Position numbers and translations under genes: made by a program. Below the pieces are notes generated by a model. The model saw nothing but the letters and a program-made list of their open reading frames with translations, had not been told where the DNA came from and ran no database searches. Positions 934-10,733 of a stretch of 10,777 nt of DNA are shown here, in pieces (within the stretch, counting starts at the first letter, position 1; each line of letters starts with the position of its first letter). Source of the stretch: Chitinophagia bacterium (GTDB taxonomy: Bacteria > Bacteroidota > Bacteroidia > Chitinophagales > Chitinophagaceae); assembly GCA_010027295.1 (NCBI GenBank), contig RGVM01000040.1, positions 1-10,777 of the forward strand, written 5' to 3'.

Positions 934-2625
934 ATGGACAGCCCTTCCGGACGAGACACAACCCAGATGGCCCTGCAGGATCTCCAACCCGCCTACTTCC
1001 TCCTTGACAGAAGTCTGACCGTTGTCGAAAGAGACGGTGCCGTTCTGCCCATCCTTGCCTCGGGCACCGGCTTCCACGACTCTTTCGAGATCCTGCGCCC
1101 TTCCATGCCCGGACTGGCAGACCACGACACGCTGGCCGCCCTCGGCGACCGCATCTTCCTCCTTAGATCTAGAAACTCGGAAGCGGATATCCGACTCATT
1201 GGCTCCTTCATGCCCGCCGATGCGATGGGAAAGCTGATGTTCTTCGGACGGGTATGGAACGACCCCGGGGAAACGTCGCCTGCCCGGACAGATGACGCCG
1301 ACAGGGCCGATGCGGACTCCATCACGGGCATGTCGGACACCAAGCCGGAAGCTGACATGGCGGCCGGCATCGAGCGGCTGAACCGCACCGACCGCGAACT
1401 GCTGCGGGAGAAGCTCCGTTTCGAAGCCGTGTTCCAATATTCCACCATCGCCATCCTCGTGTCGGACGGGAGAGGGCGCATCGTCCTCGCCAACCGCATG
1501 GCCGGTGAGACCTTCGGGTATCCCGCCCACGCCATAGAGGGAATGGCCATCGAAGAGCTCATCCCCGCCAGATATCGCGAAAGGCATGTCGGCTACCGCG
1601 ACCGCTACCACCAGCGGCCCGTCAACCGCACCATGGGACTGGGACTGGACCTGCATGCCCGACGCCGCGACGGCAGCGAGTTCCCCGTCGAGATTAGCCT
1701 CGGCCACTACCAGACCGAGGAAGGCCGGTTCGTCATCGCCTATGTCATCGACATCACCCGCAGGAAGGAGATCGAACAGGCCGTGCGCGACCAGCAGATG
1801 GAGATGGCCCGCGTCAACCGCGAGATAGAAGAACTAAACGCTGCGTTGGAAGCCAAGGTCGAACAACGCACCCACCAGCTGCAGGAGACCCTTGCCGTCC
1901 TCCAGCACTCGAGGGACGAACTCGAGAAGGCGCTCAGCAAGGAGAAGGAACTGAGCGACCTCAAGACGCGCTTCGTGTCCATGGCCTCGCATGAGTTCCG
2001 CACACCGCTGAGCACGATCCTATCCTCGGCGTCGCTCGTCGGCAAATACACCCTCACCGAAGAACAGAACAAACGCGACAAGCACATACAACGCATCCGC
2101 TCGGCAGTCAGCAACCTCACCGACATCCTCAACGAGTTCCTCTCCATTGGCAAACTCGAAGAGGGCCGCATCCAGGTCAACCCCTCCGAATTCAACCTAA
2201 GGCAGCACACCGAACTCGTCTGCAACGAGATGCAGACTATCCTAAAGCCCGGACAGCACATACGCGTCACACACAAGGGTCCAGAGACCGTGACGCTCGA
2301 CCTCTCCCTGTTCCGGAACATCATCATCAACCTCGTCTCTAACGCCATCAAATTCTCCCCGGAAGGCGCCGCCATCGATGTGGAGACGGCGGTCGACGGC
2401 GGCCGCTCGTCCATCCGCGTGCGGGACCATGGCATCGGCATCTCGGAAGATGACCGCAAGCATCTATTCGAGCGTTTCTTCCGCGGAAAGAACGCCACCA
2501 ACATCCAGGGCACCGGCCTCGGACTGCATATCGTCTCCAAATACGCTGAACTGATGCAGGGCAGCATCACTGTCGAGAGCGAGCTGGAACAGGGCACCAC
2601 CTTCACCGTACAATTCAACGCATGA
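934..2625 (+). CDS. HNOBA-PAS sensor histidine kinase
   Basis: A 563-residue sensor kinase without obvious membrane segments, so probably cytoplasmic. Residues about 19-109 match the HNOBA domain (heme-NO-binding-associated) that follows H-NOX in soluble guanylate cyclases: LLDRSLTVVERDG, then FEILRP, DRIFLLRSR, IRLIGSFM and LMFFGR line up in order. An acidic linker leads to a PAS domain (about 163-279) with a FixL-like core, including RHVGYRDRY (H218) and GLGLDLHARRRDGSEFPVE. A coiled coil (about 285-345) leads to HisKA with SHEFRTPL (phosphoacceptor H353). The HATPase domain has its N box near N470, DHGIGIS (D498) and GTGLGL (526-531), all intact. Start: ATG 934; TTG 928 and ATG 967 are alternatives that leave all domains whole. 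It overlaps the next gene by ATGA, so the two are translationally coupled and very likely cognate. The ligand is unknown; NO, O2 or redox sensing is inferred from the domains. Confidence 0.9.
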   Translation: MDSPSGRDTTQMALQDLQPAYFLLDRSLTVVERDGAVLPILASGTGFHDSFEILRPSMPGLADHDTLAALGDRIFLLRSRNSEADIRLIGSFMPADAMGKLMFFGRVWNDPGETSPARTDDADRADADSITGMSDTKPEADMAAGIERLNRTDRELLREKLRFEAVFQYSTIAILVSDGRGRIVLANRMAGETFGYPAHAIEGMAIEELIPARYRERHVGYRDRYHQRPVNRTMGLGLDLHARRRDGSEFPVEISLGHYQTEEGRFVIAYVIDITRRKEIEQAVRDQQMEMARVNREIEELNAALEAKVEQRTHQLQETLAVLQHSRDELEKALSKEKELSDLKTRFVSMASHEFRTPLSTILSSASLVGKYTLTEEQNKRDKHIQRIRSAVSNLTDILNEFLSIGKLEEGRIQVNPSEFNLRQHTELVCNEMQTILKPGQHIRVTHKGPETVTLDLSLFRNIIINLVSNAIKFSPEGAAIDVETAVDGGRSSIRVRDHGIGISEDDRKHLFERFFRGKNATNIQGTGLGLHIVSKYAELMQGSITVESELEQGTTFTVQFNA

Positions 2626-3680
2626 GCACCATCCTGATCATCGAAGACAACCTGGAAGTGCGGGAGAACACCGCCGAGATCCTGGAACTGGCCGACTACA
2701 GGGTCGTGACCGCCGAGAACGGTAAGATCGGCGTCGAGAAGGCCCTGCAGGAACGCCCCGACCTCATCATCTGCGACATCATGATGCCCGTGCTCGACGG
2801 GTACGGTGTCCTACACCTGCTCAACAAGAACGAGAAACTCCGACACATCCCCTTCATCTTCCTCACCGCCAAGGCCGAGCGGAGCGACTTCCGCACCGGC
2901 ATGGAGATGGGGGCCGACGACTACATCACCAAGCCCTTCACCGACATCGAACTGCTCAACGCCATCGAACGACGGCTGAAGAAGTCCGAACTCCTGCGCA
3001 AGGAATACGCCCGCAACATGCAGGGTATTGGCGAACTCATGCACGACGCCGGACACGAGGAAGCCCTCAAGGCGCTCTCCGAAGGCCGAAACATCAACCA
3101 CTATAAGCGAAAACAGATCATCTACTCCGAAGGCAACCACCCCCTTCGTCTCTACTTCGTTCAAAAAGGCAAGGTCAAGACATTCAAGTCGAACGACGAC
3201 GGCAAGGAACTCACTGTCGGACTCTACAACGTGGGCGACTTCTTCGGTTACATATCCCTGTTGGAGAACACCACCTACAAGGAGACGGCCGAAGCGATGG
3301 AGGACTGCGAAGTGGCCATCATCCCCCGCGAAGACTTCGAATCGCTTATCCACGAGAACCCCGAAGTCACACATCGCTTTATCCGCATGCTCGCCAGCAA
3401 TATCACCGAGAAGGAGGAGCAGCTCCTAGGACTCGCATACAACTCGCTCCGAAAGCGCGTCGCGGATGCACTCGTCACCCTCCAGCGCAAATACCGGAAG
3501 CCCGGCTCGGAACCCTTCGCCATCCATATCTCGCGAGAGGACCTAGCCAACATCGCAGGCACGGCCACCGAATCGCTGATCCGGACACTGAGCGACTTCA
3601 AGTCAGAGAAACTCATAGAGATCCGCGACGGCAATATCGTCATCATCAATGAAAGGAAACTCGCATCGATGCTGAACTGA
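2622..3680 (+). CDS. Response regulator: receiver fused to CRP/FNR-type transcription factor
   Basis: A 352-residue regulator. The receiver domain (1-125) has E8/D9, phosphoacceptor D52 in CDIMMP, T82 and K104 in TKPF, so it should be phosphorylatable. A cNMP-binding-like beta-roll (about 155-250), a dimerisation helix and a Crp-type helix-turn-helix (about 285-347) follow. The recognition helix reads GTATESLIRTLS: E317 and R321 match the Glu and Arg that CRP (E181, R185) and FNR (E209, R213) use to read TGA half-sites. FNR's Ser is Ile320 here. The beta-roll has FFGYIS (G209-Y210) where CRP has its GE phosphate pocket, so cyclic-nucleotide binding is unlikely. No FNR-type cysteine cluster is present; the signal probably arrives as a phosphoryl group from the upstream kinase. 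Likely targets include the neighbouring cbb3 operon, whose promoter has TGA-N6-TCA dyads (inference). Confidence 0.92.
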   Translation: MSTILIIEDNLEVRENTAEILELADYRVVTAENGKIGVEKALQERPDLIICDIMMPVLDGYGVLHLLNKNEKLRHIPFIFLTAKAERSDFRTGMEMGADDYITKPFTDIELLNAIERRLKKSELLRKEYARNMQGIGELMHDAGHEEALKALSEGRNINHYKRKQIIYSEGNHPLRLYFVQKGKVKTFKSNDDGKELTVGLYNVGDFFGYISLLENTTYKETAEAMEDCEVAIIPREDFESLIHENPEVTHRFIRMLASNITEKEEQLLGLAYNSLRKRVADALVTLQRKYRKPGSEPFAIHISREDLANIAGTATESLIRTLSDFKSEKLIEIRDGNIVIINERKLASMLN

Positions 3681-3693
3681 GGCCTCCTGACAA

Positions 3694-3720
3694 GGTCGCT
3701 TTCCACATTCAGAGGCGACC
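3694..3720. terminator. Weak inverted repeat between convergent genes, possible terminator
   Basis: GGTCGC (3694-3699) and GCGACC (3715-3720) form a 6-base stem with a 15-base loop, located where the regulator gene (ending at 3680) meets the convergent minus-strand gene (ending at 3709). A hairpin at this spot could end transcription in either direction. There is no clear T-run on either side, so this is tentative. Confidence 0.25.
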
Positions 3721-4182
3721 GTCGATATAGTCGTTGAACTGGTTTCGCAACCCAGTGAATTCGCGCTCCAGGTAATCCATCTGCCCCCTCAGCCTACGCT
3801 GCACCAGTCGCAGTCGTTCGTCCATCCCTGTCTCCCTCCTGCGCACCTGTCCCTGCAGGCTGCGCTCCTGCCCGTTCACGTCGTGACGCATCTCGTCGAG
3901 GTACTCGTCCTTGATGATGAACTGGTTCTGGAAATGCTCCGCATGCGCCAGGAAGTCCCTATCGGTGCTCCCATCCACCACCTCCGCAAGCCGGTTTTTC
4001 AGATGGCTGTTCTCCTGCCGGAGGAACTCGAGGCTCCTCAGCCAGGCCATGGTCTCCTCATGGAACTGGTGCCATAGCCGAGCGTGGGCGGTAATTTCCG
4101 CAGAAACACCCCACCCACCCGGGTAGGTTATCGGTATGCCCGTACCTCCCTGGCCCTCATGCCCCTCATGCTGCCTTTCCAT
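3709..4182 (-). CDS. Hypothetical coiled-coil protein
   Basis: A 157-residue protein I cannot assign to a characterised family. The first 35 residues are Gly/His-rich and probably disordered (a HEG-HEG tandem, then ITYPGGWG). From about residue 38 it is helical and charged: a Trp/His stretch with LWHQFHEE, then LEFLRQENSHLKNRLAEVV, then AEHFQNQFIIKDEYLDEMRHDV, and a basic, Arg-rich C-terminal coiled coil. It has no signal peptide, no membrane segment and no cysteine. Its pattern resembles small conserved hypothetical coiled-coil proteins of Bacteroidota, but that is from memory. It stands alone, convergent with the two-component operon and separated from the upstream cbb3 operon by 146 bases of AT-rich DNA, so it probably has its own promoter. 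The start at 4182 precedes the low-complexity part; a start further in would keep the helical part. Confidence 0.65.
   Translation of the reverse strand: MERQHEGHEGQGGTGIPITYPGGWGVSAEITAHARLWHQFHEETMAWLRSLEFLRQENSHLKNRLAEVVDGSTDRDFLAHAEHFQNQFIIKDEYLDEMRHDVNGQERSLQGQVRRRETGMDERLRLVQRRLRGQMDYLEREFTGLRNQFNDYIDGRL
4154..4171. repeat. Tandem 9-base repeat inside the hypothetical gene
   Basis: CCCTCATGC occurs twice in direct succession (4154-4162 and 4163-4171). On the coding (minus) strand it encodes part of the HEG-HEG repeat near the N-terminus of the coiled-coil protein. It is in frame, so gain or loss of a copy would not break the gene. Confidence 0.5.
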
Positions 4183-4328
4183 GACACCCCTCAGTCCAGG
4201 GTCCCGGACAACCCAGGAACCTTGGAATCATTTATTTTATACTTATTTGATATAAATGAAACAAATTGAATCAGAAAGGCTTGCAATTTCCATAACCGGG
4301 ATCATTCGAAACACTGACATCGGTCATG
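4183..4328 (-). promoter_or_regulatory. AT-rich intergenic region with an FNR-like dyad, probable promoter of the coiled-coil gene
   Basis: The stretch 4225-4275 is far richer in A and T than the rest of the window. It contains TTGATATAAATGAA (4247-4260), which differs from the FNR consensus TTGAT-N4-ATCAA at one base. The dyad is about 70 bases before the start codon of the minus-strand gene. I could not place a convincing TAnnTTTG element at the matching distance, so promoter position and any regulation are uncertain. The dyad could also arise by chance in AT-rich DNA. Confidence 0.4.
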
Positions 4329-4331
4329 TCA
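4315..4331 (-). terminator. Hairpin overlapping the last stop codon of the cbb3 operon
   Basis: TGACAT and ATGTCA form a perfect 6-base stem around a 5-base loop. The arm at 4326-4331 includes the stop codon (4329-4331) of the TauE/SafE gene. Position at the operon end suggests a role in termination or mRNA stability, but no T-run follows on the minus strand (GTGTTTCG), so a standard intrinsic terminator is not established. Confidence 0.3.
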
Positions 4332-5045
4332 ATGGCATTCCACCGGAGTGGTGCCGCTCAGCCGCAGGGAGGGGCTGACGAAGGGGATGCCCAGGTTCAG
4401 GCCTCTCAGGATGAGCAGGCAGGCCATTACGGCGAGGACGGCGGGATAGGCCCTCGACAGTTCCCTGCGGAGGCCTGGCCGCAGAAGTCCGCCGGTCAGC
4501 ATCAGTCCCGCCATGGCGGGCAGGGTGCCAAGGCCGAAAGAGACCATGAAGCCCATGCCACCCCATACGGAACCCGCAAGGGCGGCGCCGGCAAGCGCCA
4601 TATAGACAAGCCCGCAGGGCAGCAACCCGTTGAGGATGCCTGCCAGGAGCCTTGCCTCCGGACGCGGGTCAAACAGATGCCTGGAAAGTTGCGTACGCAA
4701 CCGGGCCAGGGCAACCGGGGTCAGCCGCCAGGAGGCCATCCGGGGACGTCGACCGGACAGCAGCAAGTAGCATAGGAGCGCGATACCCAACCCCACGGAA
4801 ATTCGCTGCTGCCAGCCGAACCATGCGATGCGTCCTCCGATTGCGCCGAACAGGGCGCCATAGGCCGCATAGGTCAGCATCCTGCCCACATTGTACAGCA
4901 GCACGCCTGCCAACCGTCTCCCCATTCCACCAATCGGGCTGGGAAGGGCCAGCGCCAGCGGACCACACATGCCCATGCAGTGCAGGCTGCCGGCGACACC
5001 TATCAGGAAACCGGGGATAAGGATCGATGCGATCGTTTCGGCCAT
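4329..5045 (-). CDS. TauE/SafE (UreH_2)-family membrane protein of the cbb3 cluster
   Basis: A 238-residue polytopic membrane protein of the sulfite exporter TauE/SafE, UreH_2-like group, which is commonly the last gene of cbb3 clusters in Bacteroidota. Recognisable motifs are GSLHCMGMCGP (19-29, with H22, C23, C27), YNVGR (51-55) and NGLLPCGLVYMAL (from 139, with C144). Both Cys motifs lie in or next to membrane segments, and the repeated GxxHC/LPCG pattern resembles the DsbD-like transmembrane fold. A second group of hydrophobic helices runs from about 137 to 228, and the protein ends in VECH. The Cys/His residues and the gene position suggest a role in copper or thiol handling during oxidase assembly, but the substrate is unknown. 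It starts 3 bases after the ccoH stop, so it is clearly part of the operon. Confidence 0.82.
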   Translation of the reverse strand: MAETIASILIPGFLIGVAGSLHCMGMCGPLALALPSPIGGMGRRLAGVLLYNVGRMLTYAAYGALFGAIGGRIAWFGWQQRISVGLGIALLCYLLLSGRRPRMASWRLTPVALARLRTQLSRHLFDPRPEARLLAGILNGLLPCGLVYMALAGAALAGSVWGGMGFMVSFGLGTLPAMAGLMLTGGLLRPGLRRELSRAYPAVLAVMACLLILRGLNLGIPFVSPSLRLSGTTPVECH

Positions 5046-5048
5046 GAA

Positions 5049-5489
5049 TCAGGGTATGAGGATGTCGCGCTCCACATGATAGACCTTACCGTCGGCACGG
5101 AAGGTCAGCTTGAGCACCTGGAAGCCGGAACGGTCACGTGGGACGACCAGGACAGCCTTACGGTCGGTCGTGGCGAAATGCTCGTGGATGTCTTTCCCCG
5201 CATCGGAAGGACAGTAGAGGGTAAGTTCGCCTTCCACCTGTCGCGACCCGAATTCGGGTGGCAGCAGCAGCTCGATACGCCCTTCGCGGAAGGATGCGGA
5301 GACGGGCACCGACAGCGCGGCGGCATTCGCCTGCTGCTCAATCCGTTCCTGGTAGCGTACCTCCTGCTCGTAATAGTCGGGCGTGACCAGGTCGACCCGC
5401 TCGCCGGCGGAACGATAGACCATCCAGCCTATCCCGGCCACAAAGACCAGGTACACTGCAAGAATCCTATATCCCCAATCGAATGACAT
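5049..5489 (-). CDS. ccoH: FixH/CcoH family cbb3 oxidase assembly protein
   Basis: A 146-residue protein with one N-terminal membrane anchor (about 8-26, YRILAVYLVFVAGIGWMV) and a periplasmic domain. After the anchor comes the family signature DLVTPDYYEQEVRYQERI, followed by a beta-rich region (about 60-146). FixH/CcoH is needed for stable assembly of the cbb3 oxidase, probably holding subunits together in the membrane. It sits between ccoG and the TauE/SafE gene; the 30-base gap after the ccoG stop is very AT-rich compared with the rest of the operon. No Shine-Dalgarno sequence is visible, as is common in Bacteroidota. Confidence 0.88.
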   Translation of the reverse strand: MSFDWGYRILAVYLVFVAGIGWMVYRSAGERVDLVTPDYYEQEVRYQERIEQQANAAALSVPVSASFREGRIELLLPPEFGSRQVEGELTLYCPSDAGKDIHEHFATTDRKAVLVVPRDRSGFQVLKLTFRADGKVYHVERDILIP

Positions 5490-5519: not shown

Positions 5520-6962
5520 TCATCGCCCCACAGGGCCGATGAATGTCACAGGCAAGTCGCTGATCACACGGCCCTCCTCCAACACCTGCAGATGGAAGGG
5601 CGTCCTCCGCTTCCGGATTTCATCCTTGGGTACTTTCACGATGAACGTGGTCGTGCCATAGGCTTCCCGCCCCACCACGATGCCCTTGCCGACGAGCGCT
5701 ATCTCCCCGCGGATGCCGGTGAGGCGAAGTGTCAGGGGGATCTCCCGGCGCGTCTTGTTGGCCATCCGGGCGTTGTACAAGTTGGCGATGCGTCCGTCGG
5801 GCATCTCCTGGTACAGGCTGCCCGAGGCCCGAAGGATCGTCACGTCGACGTCCTTCCGCGTGGCGAGCATCACTGCCAACGCCACGACCAGCCCGACGAG
5901 CACGGCCGAATAGGCGACCATCCTCGCCGTGATGCGGGGGCGCTCCCCCTTCGCCACGTTGTTCTCCGATGCGAAGCGTATCAGCCGTGTCGGCTTGCCG
6001 ACGGCCTTCATGATGTCGTCGCAGGCGTCGATGCAGGCCGTGCAGTTGACGCACTCGAGCTGGGTCCCGCTGCGGATGTCGATGCCCGTGGGACACACCC
6101 GCACACAGGCGGCGCAGTCGATGCAATCACCACGGCCCATATCCGCCTTTCCCTTTACGGCCCTGCCCCGGGGCTCACCGCGGACGTAGTCGTAGGCCAC
6201 CACGATCGAGTCTTTGTCTAGCAACACACCCTGCAGTCGTCCATAAGGACAGACGACGATGCAGACCTGCTCGCGGAACCAGTGGAAGACGAAGAAGAAG
6301 ACGGTGCTGAAGACGACCACCGCGGCGAAGGTCCCCATGTGCGCCCCGACGCCCTCGTGCAGGTAGCGCCTCACCTCGTCCATCCCGATCAGATAGGCCA
6401 TGAAGAAATGGGCGATGACGAATGACAGCAGCCAGAAAACGACAACCTTCAGGGCCCGCTTCCGGATCTTGTACGCGTTCCATGGCATCTCCTTCAGGCG
6501 TCGCTGCTGTGCCGCATCGCCGTCGATCCAGTACTCCACCTTGCGGAAGACCATCTCCATGAACACCGTCTGCGGGCAGGCCCATCCGCAGAAGACGCGA
6601 CCGAAGACGACAGTGAAGACGATGATGAACACCATGAAGGTGAGCATCCCCAGCATGAAGATGAAGAAATCCTCAGGTCCGAAGATCTGTCCGAACAGGA
6701 TGAACTTCCGCTTCAAGACGTTGACCATGAACAGCGGTTCTCCACCTCTCTCGATGAACGGGAGCGTGAAGAAGACGGCCAGGTATATGAAGCTTGCGAT
6801 GGTCCGCCGGTGATACAGCGGCCCGGAAGGACGTTTCGGGAAGATACGGTTGCGCTGCCCCTTCCGGTCAATGGTGGCGATGGTGTCGCGGAACGACTGG
6901 TCCATCGACTGCCGCTTCAGGCCTGCCGCCTCTTCTGATCTGTCTGGCATGGCAGGGTTCAT
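5520..6962 (-). CDS. ccoG: CcoG (FixG/RdxA) membrane polyferredoxin, Cu reduction for cbb3 assembly
   Basis: A 480-residue membrane iron-sulfur protein. Homologues reduce Cu(II) to Cu(I) for insertion into the CuB site of the oxidase. It begins with a short soluble segment containing SFRDTIATIDRKG and FPKRPSG, followed by membrane helices. FCGWACPQ (C125, C129) and CIVVCPYGR (C234, C238) are the membrane-proximal Cys pairs. Two 4Fe-4S motifs follow: C280-xx-C283-xx-C286-xxx-C290-P and C304-xx-C307-xx-C310-xxx-C314. A helix near 345-365 leads to a C-terminal Ig-like periplasmic domain (FixG_C), ending FIGPVGR. Length and all key cysteines are as expected. The ATG at 6962 overlaps the ccoP stop (ATGA), which supports this start; M20 (MDQSF) is a less likely internal start. 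Confidence 0.95.
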   Translation of the reverse strand: MNPAMPDRSEEAAGLKRQSMDQSFRDTIATIDRKGQRNRIFPKRPSGPLYHRRTIASFIYLAVFFTLPFIERGGEPLFMVNVLKRKFILFGQIFGPEDFFIFMLGMLTFMVFIIVFTVVFGRVFCGWACPQTVFMEMVFRKVEYWIDGDAAQQRRLKEMPWNAYKIRKRALKVVVFWLLSFVIAHFFMAYLIGMDEVRRYLHEGVGAHMGTFAAVVVFSTVFFFVFHWFREQVCIVVCPYGRLQGVLLDKDSIVVAYDYVRGEPRGRAVKGKADMGRGDCIDCAACVRVCPTGIDIRSGTQLECVNCTACIDACDDIMKAVGKPTRLIRFASENNVAKGERPRITARMVAYSAVLVGLVVALAVMLATRKDVDVTILRASGSLYQEMPDGRIANLYNARMANKTRREIPLTLRLTGIRGEIALVGKGIVVGREAYGTTTFIVKVPKDEIRKRRTPFHLQVLEEGRVISDLPVTFIGPVGR

Positions 6963-8095
6963 TGGATGGCCGATGCGGAGTCCGGGGCGGCGTGTGTCTC
7001 AGAGTAGGGGTCTCCCTGTGGCGCCTTTGGGTTGGCGGGCCGGGTGCCCGCCAGCGACTTCACATAGGTTGCGAGATGCTTCATCTGCACGGGACTGAAG
7101 GATGTCTGCCATGCCTGCATGCCCTTCTCGGGGTATCCCAGCTTGATGGTCCTGTACACGTCCTTCAGGCTACCACCGTGGATCCAGTGGTTGTCAGTGA
7201 GGTTTGGACCGATGCCACCTCCGCCGTCAGGCGCATGACAGGCGACGCAGCTCTGGGTAAAGAGCGCCTTTCCGGCTGCTAACCCGACGGCATCGGAGGG
7301 GGTGAGCGTGTTCTCGTCCACCAGGTCCTTGGTGCGGGCCTTGTAGAGTTCCTCCTGTTCCCGCGCTGAAGCCATCTCAGCGGCATATTCCTGCGCGGGG
7401 TCCTTCCCCGTCCCGAAGACATGGAAGTGGAAGAGGTACACGAAGCCGATGACGATGGTGACGTAGAAGCCCCATTTCCACCAGGGCGGCAGGGCATTAT
7501 CGAGCTCGCGGATGCCGTCATAGTCGTGATCGAGCATCACGTCGGCCTCGCGTTCCACGGGCACGGCCCTTGTCATGAGCCCCCTGTCGAGTCGACTCCA
7601 CCATACCGACAATCGATTCTCGCGCACATGCTCCACAACAAGACGCTCATCGGCCCCGGTGAGTGTGCGGTACATGCGGCGGGCGAGGAAGGCGAGGAAA
7701 CAGATGACGACGACTTCCAGTCCGATGACGCCGGCAAGGAGGTAGAACTGCCATTCCGAGAGTCCTCCAAAGTGGGCGGAGGGGGCTGACGACGTCTGCG
7801 CGGGTAGGTCGTCGGATAGTGCCGTGAGCATGATCAGCAGGATCGTGGCGGTTCCAGCCGCCTTCCGCTTCGCAGAGAGCTGGCGGGCGAAGGCGAGAAG
7901 GGCCTGACCCAGGCCCCATATCACGAAGAGCAGCACGATGGCTATGAAGATGAGCAGCATCTCGAGCCAGTTGGTCTGCGGCTGCGTCGAGGGGGCCACT
8001 CCACCGCCCCGCGCAAGGGAGGTGAGGGCGGAGAGCAGTGCCAGTCCGGATACGGCCGCCTTTCTCCTAAGGCCGGTCTTGTGGGTGGAACGCAT
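6959..8095 (-). CDS. ccoP: cbb3 oxidase subunit CcoP (FixP), mono-heme c type
   Basis: A 378-residue membrane-anchored cytochrome c that passes electrons to the catalytic subunit. It has one heme c site, CVACH (C283, C286, H287), with GPNLTD and probable axial Met M326 in EKGMQAW. Proteobacterial CcoP has two such sites, whereas Bacteroidota versions usually have one. Before the heme domain lie the family segment MLDHDYDGIRELDNALPPWW and the anchor helix (about 203-225). The N-terminus is unusually long: further hydrophobic stretches near 13-30 (signal-like), 44-68, 82-95 and 116-140. I choose ATG 8095, one base after the ccoQ stop, over an upstream ATG at 8134 that would overlap ccoQ. A Pro/Ala-rich tail follows the heme domain. 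The stop overlaps the ccoG start. Confidence 0.93.
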   Translation of the reverse strand: MRSTHKTGLRRKAAVSGLALLSALTSLARGGGVAPSTQPQTNWLEMLLIFIAIVLLFVIWGLGQALLAFARQLSAKRKAAGTATILLIMLTALSDDLPAQTSSAPSAHFGGLSEWQFYLLAGVIGLEVVVICFLAFLARRMYRTLTGADERLVVEHVRENRLSVWWSRLDRGLMTRAVPVEREADVMLDHDYDGIRELDNALPPWWKWGFYVTIVIGFVYLFHFHVFGTGKDPAQEYAAEMASAREQEELYKARTKDLVDENTLTPSDAVGLAAGKALFTQSCVACHAPDGGGGIGPNLTDNHWIHGGSLKDVYRTIKLGYPEKGMQAWQTSFSPVQMKHLATYVKSLAGTRPANPKAPQGDPYSETHAAPDSASAIQ

Positions 8096-8096
8096 G

Positions 8097-8300
8097 TCAG
8101 TGGGTTTGTTCGTTAAGGGTTTCCGGGTCGTCATTCATATCCAGCGGTAGCTTGGACAGTTCGCGCAAATCGGCTCGTTCCATCATGGACACTTGCACCA
8201 GCACGGCGGCGAAGACGGCCATGAAGAGGATGAGGGCTATGACCGGGTAGATGCCGATGAGTGACAGCTGGTCGGCGTATTGCGATACGATCTTGGACAT
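8097..8300 (-). CDS. ccoQ: Small CcoQ-like subunit of cbb3 oxidase
   Basis: A 67-residue protein with one membrane helix (about 14-37, IGIYPVIALILFMAVFAAVLVQV) and a short charged tail rich in Asp and Glu (LSKLPLDMNDDPETLNEQTH). Size, topology and position between ccoNO and ccoP match CcoQ/FixQ, a non-catalytic subunit that stabilises the complex. Sequence conservation in this family is low, so the assignment rests on context. It starts one base after the ccoO stop and ends one base before the ccoP start. Confidence 0.8.
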   Translation of the reverse strand: MSKIVSQYADQLSLIGIYPVIALILFMAVFAAVLVQVSMMERADLRELSKLPLDMNDDPETLNEQTH

Positions 8301-8301
8301 G

Positions 8302-10458
8302 TCATTGGTTTTGTGCGGTCGTGGACTTGCCTATGTCGGTGCCGAGGCGCTGCATGTAGGCGATCAGTGCGATGACCTCGCGGTTCGCAGGCGTCTGGAT
8401 ACCATCGGATGCGAGGCTAGCGCGCAGCTTCTCAGCCTGGTGCATGAGGTCGGCGTTGGCCTGTCGGTCATAACCCCTGGGATAGGGAACGCCCAGTCGC
8501 TGCATGACGCGGATGCGGGCCGGCACGCTGGCCGTGTCCATCTCCCTGTCGAGCAGGAAGGCGTAGGAGGGCATGATCGAGCCTGCCGAGAGGGACTGCG
8601 GGTCTTCGAAGTGGTTGTAGTGCCAGGAGTCCGACTTCCGGTTGTTGCCCGCACCTTCACGGGCCAGGTCGGGCCCCGTCCGTTTCGAACCCCACTGGAA
8701 GGGGTGGTCGTACACGAACTCCCCCGCCTTCGAGTACTCCCCGTAGCGAGCCGTCTCGGAGCGGAAGGGACGTATCATCTGCGAATGGCAGGTGTAGCAA
8801 CCCTCCCGCACATAGATGTCCCTACCATGCAGCTCAAGCGGGGAGTAAGGCTTGACGCTGGAGAGGGTGGGCACGTTGGTGCGGATGAGGAAGGTCGGGA
8901 TCAGTTCCACGATGCCGCCGACTAGGACCACGATGAGTGTGAGTACCATGAACTGCACCGGCTTCCGCTCGATCCATCGGTGCCAATGCTCGCTGCCATG
9001 TGCTGCATAGGCACGCTCGAGGGCCGGGGCCGAAGCGGGCTCGTCAGCGAGCAGGGAGCCCTTCGCGGCCGTTTGGAAGAGGTTGTACACGCCGAGGATG
9101 GAGCCGATGAGGTAGAGGGTCCCGCCGAAGGCGCGCATCGCGTAGAAGCCGCGGAGCTGCGTCACCGTCTCCAGGAACGGGTACTTCAGCTGGCCTGCGT
9201 CGGTGAACTCCTTCCACATGAGGCTCTGCTTGAAGCCGGCCCAGTACATCGGCACGGCGTAGAAGAGGATGCCCAGGGTGGCGACCCAGAAATGCATGTT
9301 GGCGAGCCGATTCGAATGCAACTCGGTCCGGAAGATCCGCGGGAACAGCCAGTAGAGGATGCCGAAGGTCAGCATGCCATTCCACCCCAGTCCGCCGACA
9401 TGCACATGCGCGATGATCCAGTCGGTGAAGTGGCTGATGGCGTTCACGTTCTTGAGGGAGAGCATCGGGCCTTCGAAGGTGGCCATGCCGTAGGCCGTAA
9501 CGGCGACGACCATGAACTTCAGGATCACGTCCTCCCGAACCCTGTCCCAGGCGCCTCTCAGAGTAAGCAGCCCGTTGATCATCCCGCCCCAGCTGGGGAA
9601 GATGAGCGTGAAGCTGAAGACAACGCCGAGCGACTGCGCCCAGTTTGGCAGCGAGGTGTAGAGAAGGTGGTGCGGGCCGGCCCATATATAGAGGAAGATG
9701 AGCGCCCAGAAATGGATGATGGAGAGTCGGTACGAGTAGACGGGCCGGTTGGCGGCCTTCGGCATGAAGTAGTACATGAGCCCGAGGTAGGGCGTGGTCA
9801 GGAAGAAGGCCACGGCGTTATGGCCGTACCACCACTGCACCAGCGCGTCCTGGACACCGGCGTAGGCGGAGTAGCTCTTGAACAGCGAGGCCGGGAAACC
9901 GAAGGAGTTGACGATGTGCAGCACGGCCACCGTCACCAGCGTGGCGATGTAGAACCAGACGGCCACGTAGAGGTGCCGCTCGCGGCGCTTGAGGATCGTC
10001 CAGAACATATTGACGCCGAAGACGACCCATATGAGCGTGATGGCGATGTCGATCGGCAGTTCGAGCTCCGCATACTCCTTGCCGGTGGTGAATCCCAGGG
10101 GGAGCGTGACGGCGGCGGCCACGATGATGAGCTGCCATCCCCAGAAATGGATGCGGCTCAGCAGGTCGCTCGCCATGCGCGCCTTCAGCAGCCGCTGGAG
10201 GGAGTAATACACGCCCATGAACATGCCGTTGCCGACGAAAGCGAATATCACCGCGTTGGTGTGCAGGGGGCGGAGGCGGCCGAATGACAGCCCGATGGTC
10301 TCCTTTCCGGCGGGGATGCCCCCCAGGTTCCACGAGGGGAATACCATTAGCAGGGCGACCCAGAGGCCGACCAGCATGCCCACGACACCCCAAATCATGG
10401 TGGCATAGGCGAAATCCCGGACGATCCGGTTGTCATAACTGAACTTGTCGATCTGCAT
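8302..10458 (-). CDS. ccoNO: Fused cbb3 oxidase subunits CcoN-CcoO
   Basis: A 718-residue fusion of the catalytic heme-copper subunit and the mono-heme cytochrome c subunit, the usual form in Bacteroidota. In the CcoN part, H66 (RPLHTNAVIFAF) and H353 (HVHVGG, H351/H353) are heme b/b3 ligand region histidines; H213 (WWYGHNAV) and H263-H264 (AGPHH) are the expected CuB ligands; SYRLSIIHFW carries the Tyr thought to crosslink to a CuB histidine. The linker is near residues 465-495. The CcoO part has an anchor helix (FMVLTLIVVLVGGIVELIP), then CYTCH (C554, C557, H558) and axial M629 in GSIMPSYAF. I start at ATG 10458 (MQIDKFSYDNRIVRDF), the family-typical N-terminus; the longer frame back to 10608 is a shadow of ccoS. 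It overlaps the ccoS end by 26 bases. All catalytic residues are present. Confidence 0.97.
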   Translation of the reverse strand: MQIDKFSYDNRIVRDFAYATMIWGVVGMLVGLWVALLMVFPSWNLGGIPAGKETIGLSFGRLRPLHTNAVIFAFVGNGMFMGVYYSLQRLLKARMASDLLSRIHFWGWQLIIVAAAVTLPLGFTTGKEYAELELPIDIAITLIWVVFGVNMFWTILKRRERHLYVAVWFYIATLVTVAVLHIVNSFGFPASLFKSYSAYAGVQDALVQWWYGHNAVAFFLTTPYLGLMYYFMPKAANRPVYSYRLSIIHFWALIFLYIWAGPHHLLYTSLPNWAQSLGVVFSFTLIFPSWGGMINGLLTLRGAWDRVREDVILKFMVVAVTAYGMATFEGPMLSLKNVNAISHFTDWIIAHVHVGGLGWNGMLTFGILYWLFPRIFRTELHSNRLANMHFWVATLGILFYAVPMYWAGFKQSLMWKEFTDAGQLKYPFLETVTQLRGFYAMRAFGGTLYLIGSILGVYNLFQTAAKGSLLADEPASAPALERAYAAHGSEHWHRWIERKPVQFMVLTLIVVLVGGIVELIPTFLIRTNVPTLSSVKPYSPLELHGRDIYVREGCYTCHSQMIRPFRSETARYGEYSKAGEFVYDHPFQWGSKRTGPDLAREGAGNNRKSDSWHYNHFEDPQSLSAGSIMPSYAFLLDREMDTASVPARIRVMQRLGVPYPRGYDRQANADLMHQAEKLRASLASDGIQTPANREVIALIAYMQRLGTDIGKSTTAQNQ

Positions 10459-10648
10459 CTCTACGGTTTTGGTTGTTCGCAAGGGTTGAGGTGTCATCCT
10501 CCCCTGCGGGACCATCGTCGAACAGCATGCGGACCGACGGAGTGTAGTCGTCATCGTACTGACCGTCGCGTACCGACCAGAGGAAGGCCAGCAGGAAGCC
10601 CCCAGCAATCAGGATGCTCGCGGCAATCAGGATGACGAACACGCTCAT
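10433..10648 (-). CDS. ccoS: cbb3 oxidase maturation protein CcoS
   Basis: A 71-residue protein with one N-terminal helix (about 3-24, FVILIAASILIAGGFLLAFLW) followed by the CcoS signature SVRDGQYDDDYTPSVRMLFDD. CcoS is required for cofactor (heme b and copper) insertion into the cbb3 catalytic subunit. The remaining tail is polar and not conserved in my recollection of the family. It is the first gene of the operon here; the copper ATPase gene ccoI, which usually precedes ccoS, is not in the 129 bases to its right. Its 3' end overlaps the ccoNO start by 26 bases in another frame, suggesting translational coupling. Confidence 0.93.
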   Translation of the reverse strand: MSVFVILIAASILIAGGFLLAFLWSVRDGQYDDDYTPSVRMLFDDGPAGEDDTSTLANNQNRRDADRQVQL

Positions 10649-10667: not shown

Positions 10668-10675
10668 CAAAACTA
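10668..10675 (-). promoter_or_regulatory. Predicted -7 element of the cbb3 operon promoter
   Basis: Read on the minus strand this is TAGTTTTG, an exact match to the Bacteroidota -7 consensus TAnnTTTG. It lies 20 bases before the ccoS start codon, which would put the transcription start near 10663 and leave a leader of about 15 bases. No TTTG (-33 element) is found at the normal 19-21 base spacing, which suits a promoter that needs an activator. Position and consensus are seen; activity is inferred. Confidence 0.55.
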
Positions 10676-10697: not shown

Positions 10698-10711
10698 ATG
10701 ACGCCCGTCAA
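10698..10711. promoter_or_regulatory. FNR/CRP-type dyad, proximal site of the cbb3 promoter
   Basis: On the minus strand TTGACGGGCGTCAT: TGACG and CGTCA are perfect inverted arms with the TGA-N6-TCA spacing of CRP/FNR-family operators. Its centre (10704.5) is 41.5 bases upstream of the predicted start point at about 10663, the classic class II activator position. The regulator encoded at 2622-3680 carries the Glu and Arg that contact such half-sites and is the obvious candidate, but another CRP/FNR protein could bind. Confidence 0.5.
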
Positions 10712-10719
10712 AACAAAAA

Positions 10720-10733
10720 CTGATTTCCGTCAT
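10720..10733. promoter_or_regulatory. Second TGA-N6-TCA dyad, distal site of the cbb3 promoter
   Basis: On the plus strand CTGATTTCCGTCAT carries TGA and TCA half-sites with the same 6-base spacing as the proximal site. Its centre (10726.5) is 22 bases, about two helical turns, from the centre of the proximal site, so two dimers could sit on the same face of the DNA. Symmetry beyond the TGA/TCA cores is weak. It could also belong to a divergent promoter outside the window. Confidence 0.35.

Follow-up and report, generated by a model that had tools for sequence, protein, structure and literature searches.

A FixL-like sensor kinase and a receiver-CRP fusion regulator as a candidate microaerobic switch in Bacteroidia

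A kinase-regulator gene pair beside a cbb3 operon

We analysed a 10,777-nt stretch of DNA (contig RGVM01000040.1 of assembly GCA_010027295.1, Chitinophagia bacterium), called the window throughout, in which the gene of a PAS sensor histidine kinase is followed by that of a response regulator joining a receiver to a CRP-type DNA-binding module (REC-CRP). We consider it probable that this pair is a two-component microaerobic switch activating the cco genes of the cbb3 oxidase and other hypoxia genes. The cbb3 enzyme is a high-affinity oxidase, and the pair is a concrete candidate for the control of this oxidase and of hypoxia genes across many Bacteroidia.

The kinase gene runs from an ATG at 934 to a stop at 2625 and the regulator ATG lies at 2622, so that the two genes share ATGA (2622-2625), the 4-bp overlap that a first-pass annotation of this DNA had reported. 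The kinase may start instead at 967, where several close orthologues begin. Pfam placed PAS, HisKA and HATPase domains at residues 162-273, 344-411 and 459-561 of the kinase, and Response_reg, cNMP_binding (PF00027) and HTH_Crp_2 (PF13545) domains at residues 4-116, 160-246 and 278-349 of the regulator. The annotation had also described a complete receiver (D52, T82, K104) fused to a CRP/FNR module, and this description was borne out: D9, D52, T82 and K104 are invariant in 38 sequences (the window and 37 homologues), and the CRP/FNR module consists of the two domains matched by Pfam. The pair is, as likewise stated there, one gene away from a cbb3 operon of seven minus-strand genes (ccoS, a ccoN-O fusion, ccoQ, ccoP, ccoG, fixH and a gene of the DsbD_2/SafE type), with only a small coiled-coil gene (3709-4182) intervening, and the TGA-N6-TCA dyads seen at the operon's promoter lie at 10699-10710 and 10721-10732 (Table 1).

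E317 and R321 of the REC-CRP recognition helix are invariant among 23 divergent members; the corresponding Glu and Arg of CRP/FNR proteins are presumably the residues that read TGA. In the alignment, the Glu, Arg and Ser with which CRP binds cyclic AMP (cAMP) are replaced by Tyr, Lys and Glu in REC-CRP, and no FNR-type cysteine cluster was found in the REC-CRP translation. Because the cAMP contacts are replaced and such a cluster is lacking, a CRP part gated by its receiver is the simplest reading. If it is true, this CRP-type activator would respond to phosphorylation rather than to a bound small molecule or an Fe-S cluster. A structure model of REC-CRP was discarded as too weak (pLDDT 61.6).

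Spread of the pair and linkage to the oxidase genes

A database search with REC-CRP returned at least 7998 candidates, all with E-values of 1e-30 or lower, and 120 of 120 homologues among the matches listed contained the receiver, cNMP and HTH_Crp_2 domains. At E-values of 1e-45 or lower, 47 genes were found in 43 of 296 genomes of the phylum, every one of them in the class Bacteroidia. A kinase similar to that of the window lies directly upstream of REC-CRP in 42 of the 47 loci (40 of 45 by scan, to which the window and L019, inspected manually, are added). Among the loci of named genomes (80 kept), 14 match REC-CRP over near full length, including those of Mucilaginibacter psychrotolerans, Arcticibacter svalbardensis, Sphingobacterium corticibacter and Chitinophaga filiformis; 13 of these 14 have the upstream kinase match and parts of the cco operon adjoin several. 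At least one named locus is redundant, L174 being apparently the same contig as G154, which had already been counted.

Of the 38 genomes that have both REC-CRP and ccoNO, 15 (14 of 37 with the window left out) have the two no more than 12 kb apart, as compared with 0.25 expected if genes are presumed to be placed uniformly, and the linked genomes belong to 11 genera and six families. Within 35 kb the number rises to 18 of 38. In one genome (G253) the cco operon is flanked by a kinase on one side and by REC-CRP on the other. REC-CRP neighbours were picked by size and position for domain scans: 24 of 39 listed were scanned for one group and eight proved to be hemN, 23 of 94 for a second group with 14 Usp, and 13 of 17 for a third, in which four had the CcoI-type metal-binding domain.

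As a separate observation, six of 24 scanned mid-sized neighbours of REC-CRP were MBL/beta-CASP proteins.

A PAS domain with the heme-ligand histidine of FixL

The PAS domain of the window kinase aligned without gaps to that of FixL (1d06; phmmer, E 1.2e-12). Its His218 (codon 1585-1587) falls in the column of BjFixL His200, the proximal heme histidine, and this column is invariant in 40 of 40 aligned kinase sequences. Among the kinases that are partners of REC-CRP, 41 of 42 keep the histidine, the exception being L039 with Ser. Thirteen of the 42 have a FixL-type stretch around the histidine; the sole member of these 13 that was compared (L030) matched Bradyrhizobium FixL with an E-value of 2e-29, while its best match to a DosP-type chain reached 1e-15. 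In control PAS domains of proteins that are not partners, the histidine was found in only 12 of 65 matches, among them those most like the partner domains; some rows of this control are redundant, their loci overlapping, and 14 of the 65 matches stop short of the column.

The arginine of FixL is less well kept. At the column of BjFixL Arg220, presumably the oxygen-contacting arginine, the window PAS has Leu, the close orthologues of the window kinase are mostly non-Arg, and 28 of 41 partner PAS domains have Arg; this 41-row alignment omits L010, in which the kinase is divergent and not upstream, and L039, which has Ser at the histidine column and aligned poorly. The earlier description of the PAS domain as FixL-like holds for the alignment and the histidine and does not extend to the arginine column. 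Since the histidine is kept but Leu occupies the arginine column, and since the histidine also occurs in non-partner PAS domains, heme in the window kinase is plausible; for many of the orthologous kinases the PAS module is probably heme-based. We do not class the window kinase as FixL, because Arg220 is missing.

The N-terminal region of the kinase may be HNOBA-like. HNOBA (PF07701) was matched above cut-off at the N-terminus of two of the 120 listed homologues (P0151 and P0152), with no HNOBA match in the window kinase itself, where a medium-confidence structure model gave a beta-rich N-terminal region. The 50 listed matches of a structure search with the kinase model were chiefly histidine kinases and other sensor proteins and did not identify the N-terminal region. 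The HNOBA matches hint at nitric oxide (NO) or redox input in the clade of the window. There is a serious alternative, to which we give somewhat less than even credence, in which the window kinase senses a signal other than oxygen (NO via the HNOBA-like or PAS module, redox, or another cofactor) and its likeness to FixL is a relic. The Leu at the arginine column and the predominance of non-Arg residues there in close orthologues speak for this alternative, as do the two HNOBA matches, the histidine in non-partner domains and the fact that the best solved-structure match of the window PAS is a non-FixL PAS (10jx). The invariance of the heme-ligand histidine in the aligned kinases speaks against it, and so do the FixL-type PAS domains borne by relatives of the same pair.

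Operators and promoter spacing

In the window, TGA-N6-TCA occurs nine times as compared with 2.7 (standard deviation 1.6) in shuffled sequence, and none of 200 shuffles reached nine. In genomes of the class, the pattern was counted 82 times upstream of cco (5.6 expected; 70 of 85 regions), 26 times upstream of Usp genes (1.8 expected; 22 of 29 regions) and 34 times upstream of the kinase pair (3.8 expected; 25 of 46 regions), and at these three places its ratio was the highest of all half-sites that had three or more matches, out of the 64 compared at a 6-bp spacing. The remaining promoters of these loci contain 124 matches versus 22.9 expected, yet there GCC-N6-GGC has a higher ratio (13 versus 1.7). 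Convergent gaps had six matches, about one tenth of the cco density. The classical FNR box TTGAT-N4-ATCAA had no match in the six classes of regions counted, and the pattern AATGAYNNNNRTCATT had none in the genome of the window.

The ccoS promoter of the window carries two dyads at offsets of 29 and 51 from an element of the form TAnnTTTG, the -7 consensus. The same spacing is preferred elsewhere. With the refined dyad TGAY-N4-RTCA and an exact TAnnTTTG, the dyad centre lies exactly 29 bp before the element in 21 of the 34 combinations of dyad and element at cco and in six of seven at Usp. When one mismatch was allowed in the -7 element, offset 29 accounted for 20 of the 38 cco dyads in REC-CRP genomes (19 of 36 with the window left out; mean 0.61 at other offsets), for 18 of 26 at Usp and for 63 of 156 at other promoters, versus four of 114 in a coding control. 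Of 45 dyad pairs counted in REC-CRP genomes, 28 are spaced by exactly 22 bp, as are six of six pairs in the other genomes. If the -7 element is placed as we assume to be usual for the phylum, the proximal dyad falls near -41.5, presumably the position of a class II activator; the layout of the ccoS promoter in the window is consistent with class II activation.

Composite sites, that is, operators with the -7 element, numbered 249 in 42 REC-CRP genomes, 38 of which have at least one; a reversed pattern gave eight and a spacer lengthened by 3 bp gave 11 (these two totals, and the 150 sites given in the next section for genomes lacking the regulator, were summed by hand from tables). Of 150 listed sites (24 genomes, with 12 of 16 sites for G134, out of the 249 in 42 genomes), 18 are within 10 kb of a REC-CRP gene, where 0.75 would be expected under uniform placement. 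The genome of the window has three composite sites and none in the control. One precedes ccoS, another a small gene with a CcoI-type ATPase gene after it, and the third a phosphoribosyltransferase gene (L134:1612-2244).

One locus (L036, G107:C80) has seven composite operators within 17 kb of a single REC-CRP gene and is likely a hypoxia island.

Attribution of the operators to REC-CRP

Several observations weigh against the pair as the regulator of the oxidase. In 23 of the 38 genomes the distance between REC-CRP and ccoNO exceeds 12 kb. The presence of cbb3 is not associated with REC-CRP in the class, ccoNO being found in 38 of 43 genomes with the regulator and 25 of 30 without it (the 43/30 split was summed by hand, and genes of the relatives were called by a simple script taking the longest open reading frame). 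Composite sites are as much a property of genomes that lack REC-CRP, with 150 in 27 of 30 genomes of the class and four in the control, and dyads at offset 29 make up 25 of 33 at cco in such genomes. The 143 bp upstream of the window kinase contain no TGA-N6-TCA, and of the 13 linked loci in which the DNA upstream of cco or hemN was scanned, four yielded no dyad (L018, L025, L027 and L028). In the complete genome G249 the dyads violate the Y/R rule and the -7 element has one mismatch; in the complete genome G122 the dyad has no -7 element at 29 bp and there are no composite sites. On the sensor side, there is the Leu in the window PAS.

The commonness of the operator in genomes without REC-CRP means that it may belong to other Crp/Fnr proteins. 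TGA-N6-TCA was found in 38 of 47 cco regions of REC-CRP genomes and 32 of 38 regions of genomes without, and the operator was therefore rejected as a signature of REC-CRP, as was the 22-bp tandem (six of six pairs without the regulator). Because the composite pattern also occurs in 27 of the 30 genomes of the class that lack REC-CRP, the operator is an element of the whole class, most likely used by REC-CRP and stand-alone Crp/Fnr proteins alike, and for the same reason binding of REC-CRP to it is put forward as an inference. We base the attribution to REC-CRP on three features: it is the sole cNMP_binding protein found in the genome of the window (92.8% complete, 923 contigs) and the sole HTH_Crp_2 match in G249 and G122, the sites cluster near its gene, and the Glu and Arg of its recognition helix are invariant. 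A second HTH_Crp_2 match in that genome (C173) was considered as a CRP-type rival and dismissed, being a GntR/FCD regulator.

The cco operators could instead be the target of a different Crp/Fnr protein or of a regulator common to the class, with REC-CRP mainly controlling stress genes of the Usp/hemN type and its proximity to cco reflecting the clustering of hypoxia genes. The operators of genomes lacking REC-CRP favour this explanation, and a stand-alone Crp/Fnr gene adjoins ccoI in many such genomes and in some that have REC-CRP. We nevertheless regard it as rather unlikely, given that the window genome, at its 92.8% completeness, yielded no cNMP_binding protein besides REC-CRP, that G249 and G122 likewise gave no further HTH_Crp_2 match, and that the operators cluster around REC-CRP genes. 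The other explanation, an ordinary two-component pair unrelated to respiration with a neighbourhood due to chance, draws on the absence of ccoNO linkage in 23 of 38 genomes within 12 kb and 20 of 38 within 35 kb. It is already disfavoured by the 15 linked genomes in 11 genera and six families and by the recurrence of hemN, ccoI and Usp, and we hold it to be very improbable.

The claims of the first-pass annotation on this point fared unequally. A conserved neighbourhood with cbb3 genes exists (15 of 38 genomes linked), so that the refuting outcome named there, its absence, did not occur; an association between having cbb3 and having the pair was not found. Control of the oxidase by REC-CRP gains from the linkage and from the correctly spaced operators at ccoS, and loses from the same operator in genomes without REC-CRP.

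In six loci from genomes without REC-CRP (L114, L116, L117, L119, L125 and L130), the stand-alone Crp/Fnr has an N-terminal CxxC pair and is divergent from ccoI; these genes were seen as fragments at the locus edge.

Proposed mechanism and comparison with known systems

In the microaerobic switch that we favour, the PAS module of the kinase would sense a low-oxygen or redox signal, and the kinase would autophosphorylate at His353 and pass the phosphate to Asp52 of REC-CRP. Phosphorylation would take over the signalling role that a small molecule or an Fe-S cluster has in ordinary CRP/FNR proteins. The CRP part of phosphorylated REC-CRP would then bind TGAY-N4-RTCA centred near -41.5, with a second dimer 22 bp upstream at some promoters, and as a class II activator REC-CRP would switch on ccoI and a small number of further hypoxia genes along with the ccoS-NO-Q-P-G-H-safE operon. 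A wider version of this reading, which we put at slightly short of an even chance, is that many Bacteroidia use a heme-PAS kinase with a phosphorylation-gated REC-CRP as class II activator under a promoter grammar shared with stand-alone Crp/Fnr proteins (TGAY-N4-RTCA placed 29 bp from TAnnTTTG, with tandem copies 22 bp apart), the sensors of some lineages having been retuned as the oxygen-contacting arginine was lost and an HNOBA-like module acquired. The grammar is exact to the base and usable for reading regulons.

FixJ presumably has an output of the NarL/LuxR HTH type, and the window regulator is not classed as FixJ because its output is CRP-type (cNMP fold and HTH_Crp_2). The FixL-FixJ-FixK cascade of rhizobia and Caulobacter, as outlined in PMC4999443, resembles the window pair in its PAS kinase with a FixL-like PAS domain, its response regulator, its CRP/FNR-type activator and its cco and heme biosynthesis targets. 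The window pair differs in uniting receiver and CRP DNA-binding parts in one protein, and belongs to another phylum with another operator and promoter type. With both parts in one protein, the FixJ and FixK steps would merge and the fixK transcription step would be unneeded; the pair would thus work like FixLJ-FixK through phosphotransfer, a sensed ligand and DNA binding, and illustrates a possible reduction of a three-protein cascade to two. The hFixL-FxkR-FixKf system of Rhizobium, also treated in PMC4999443, likewise has a two-component input that feeds a CRP/FNR output, and its predicted targets include cco; its proteins are separate, however, and FxkR has a direct-repeat site of its own. 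In NmpRSTU of Myxococcus xanthus, according to PMC11841059, kinase activity is heme-dependent and oxygen-utilisation operons are controlled, but through a multi-step relay with an NtrC-like final regulator.

The stand-alone Crp/Fnr proteins beside ccoI in Bacteroidota are CRP-type and come from genomes with the same operator at their cco promoters; unlike REC-CRP they have no receiver, several have the N-terminal CxxC pair, and most were seen only as locus-edge fragments. The best solved matches to the CRP part were 4ev0 (Crp family, E 6e-22) and 2gau (Crp/Fnr, E 7e-21), chains of 216 and 232 residues, with the receiver outside the match. Among the titles and abstract openings listed by a literature search, without supplements or subscription papers, there was no REC-CRP/FixL pair and no such operator in Bacteroidota, which does not prove their absence from the literature.

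Features of the window and minor observations

Table 1. Features of the kinase-regulator pair, the cbb3 operon and its promoter (window positions).
Feature	Position	Strand	Basis or remark
PAS sensor histidine kinase	934..2625	+	563 aa; 552 aa if start is 967
Kinase N-terminal region, HNOBA-like (H-NOX-associated) candidate	988..1258	+	PF07701 in two orthologues; medium-confidence model
FixL-like PAS domain	1402..1779	+	phmmer match to FixL, E 1.2e-12; column comparison
H-box His353, predicted phosphorylation site	1990..1992	+	HisKA match; invariant among aligned kinase sequences
REC-CRP response regulator	2622..3680	+	352 aa
Asp52, predicted receiver phospho-acceptor	2775..2777	+	invariant in two alignments
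cNMP_binding fold	3099..3359	+	sole one found in the window's genome
HTH_Crp_2 DNA-binding domain, invariant E317 and R321	3453..3668	+	Pfam and alignment
Small coiled-coil protein between pair and operon	3709..4182	-	no Pfam match
SafE/DsbD_2-type membrane protein, cco operon	4329..5045	-	Pfam
FixH/CcoH	5049..5489	-	Pfam
CcoG	5520..6962	-	profile match
CcoP	6959..8134	-	Pfam FixP_N; below NCBIfam ccoP cut-off
CcoQ-like small protein	8097..8300	-	named by position and length; no Pfam match
CcoN-CcoO fusion	8302..10458	-	profile match
CcoS, first gene of the operon	10433..10648	-	profile match
-7 element TAGTTTTG (TAnnTTTG)	10668..10675	-	pattern scan
Proximal operator TGACGGGCGTCA	10699..10710	-	centre exactly 29 bp upstream of -7 element
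Distal operator TGACGGAAATCA	10721..10732	-	exactly 22 bp upstream of proximal operator

The small coiled-coil gene has a counterpart adjoining REC-CRP in two loci, L009 (G091, 45% identity) and L166. Homology of the coiled-coil protein with a small protein before the CcoI-type gene in the window's genome (L133) was unsupported by comparison. Upstream of the coiled-coil gene there is an extra TGAC-N4-GTCA dyad at 4315-4326, by eye without a -7 element at 29 bp. At the other end of the pair, just upstream of the kinase and on the same strand, the window encodes a CruF-like carotenoid biosynthesis gene (PF04240, 68-790).

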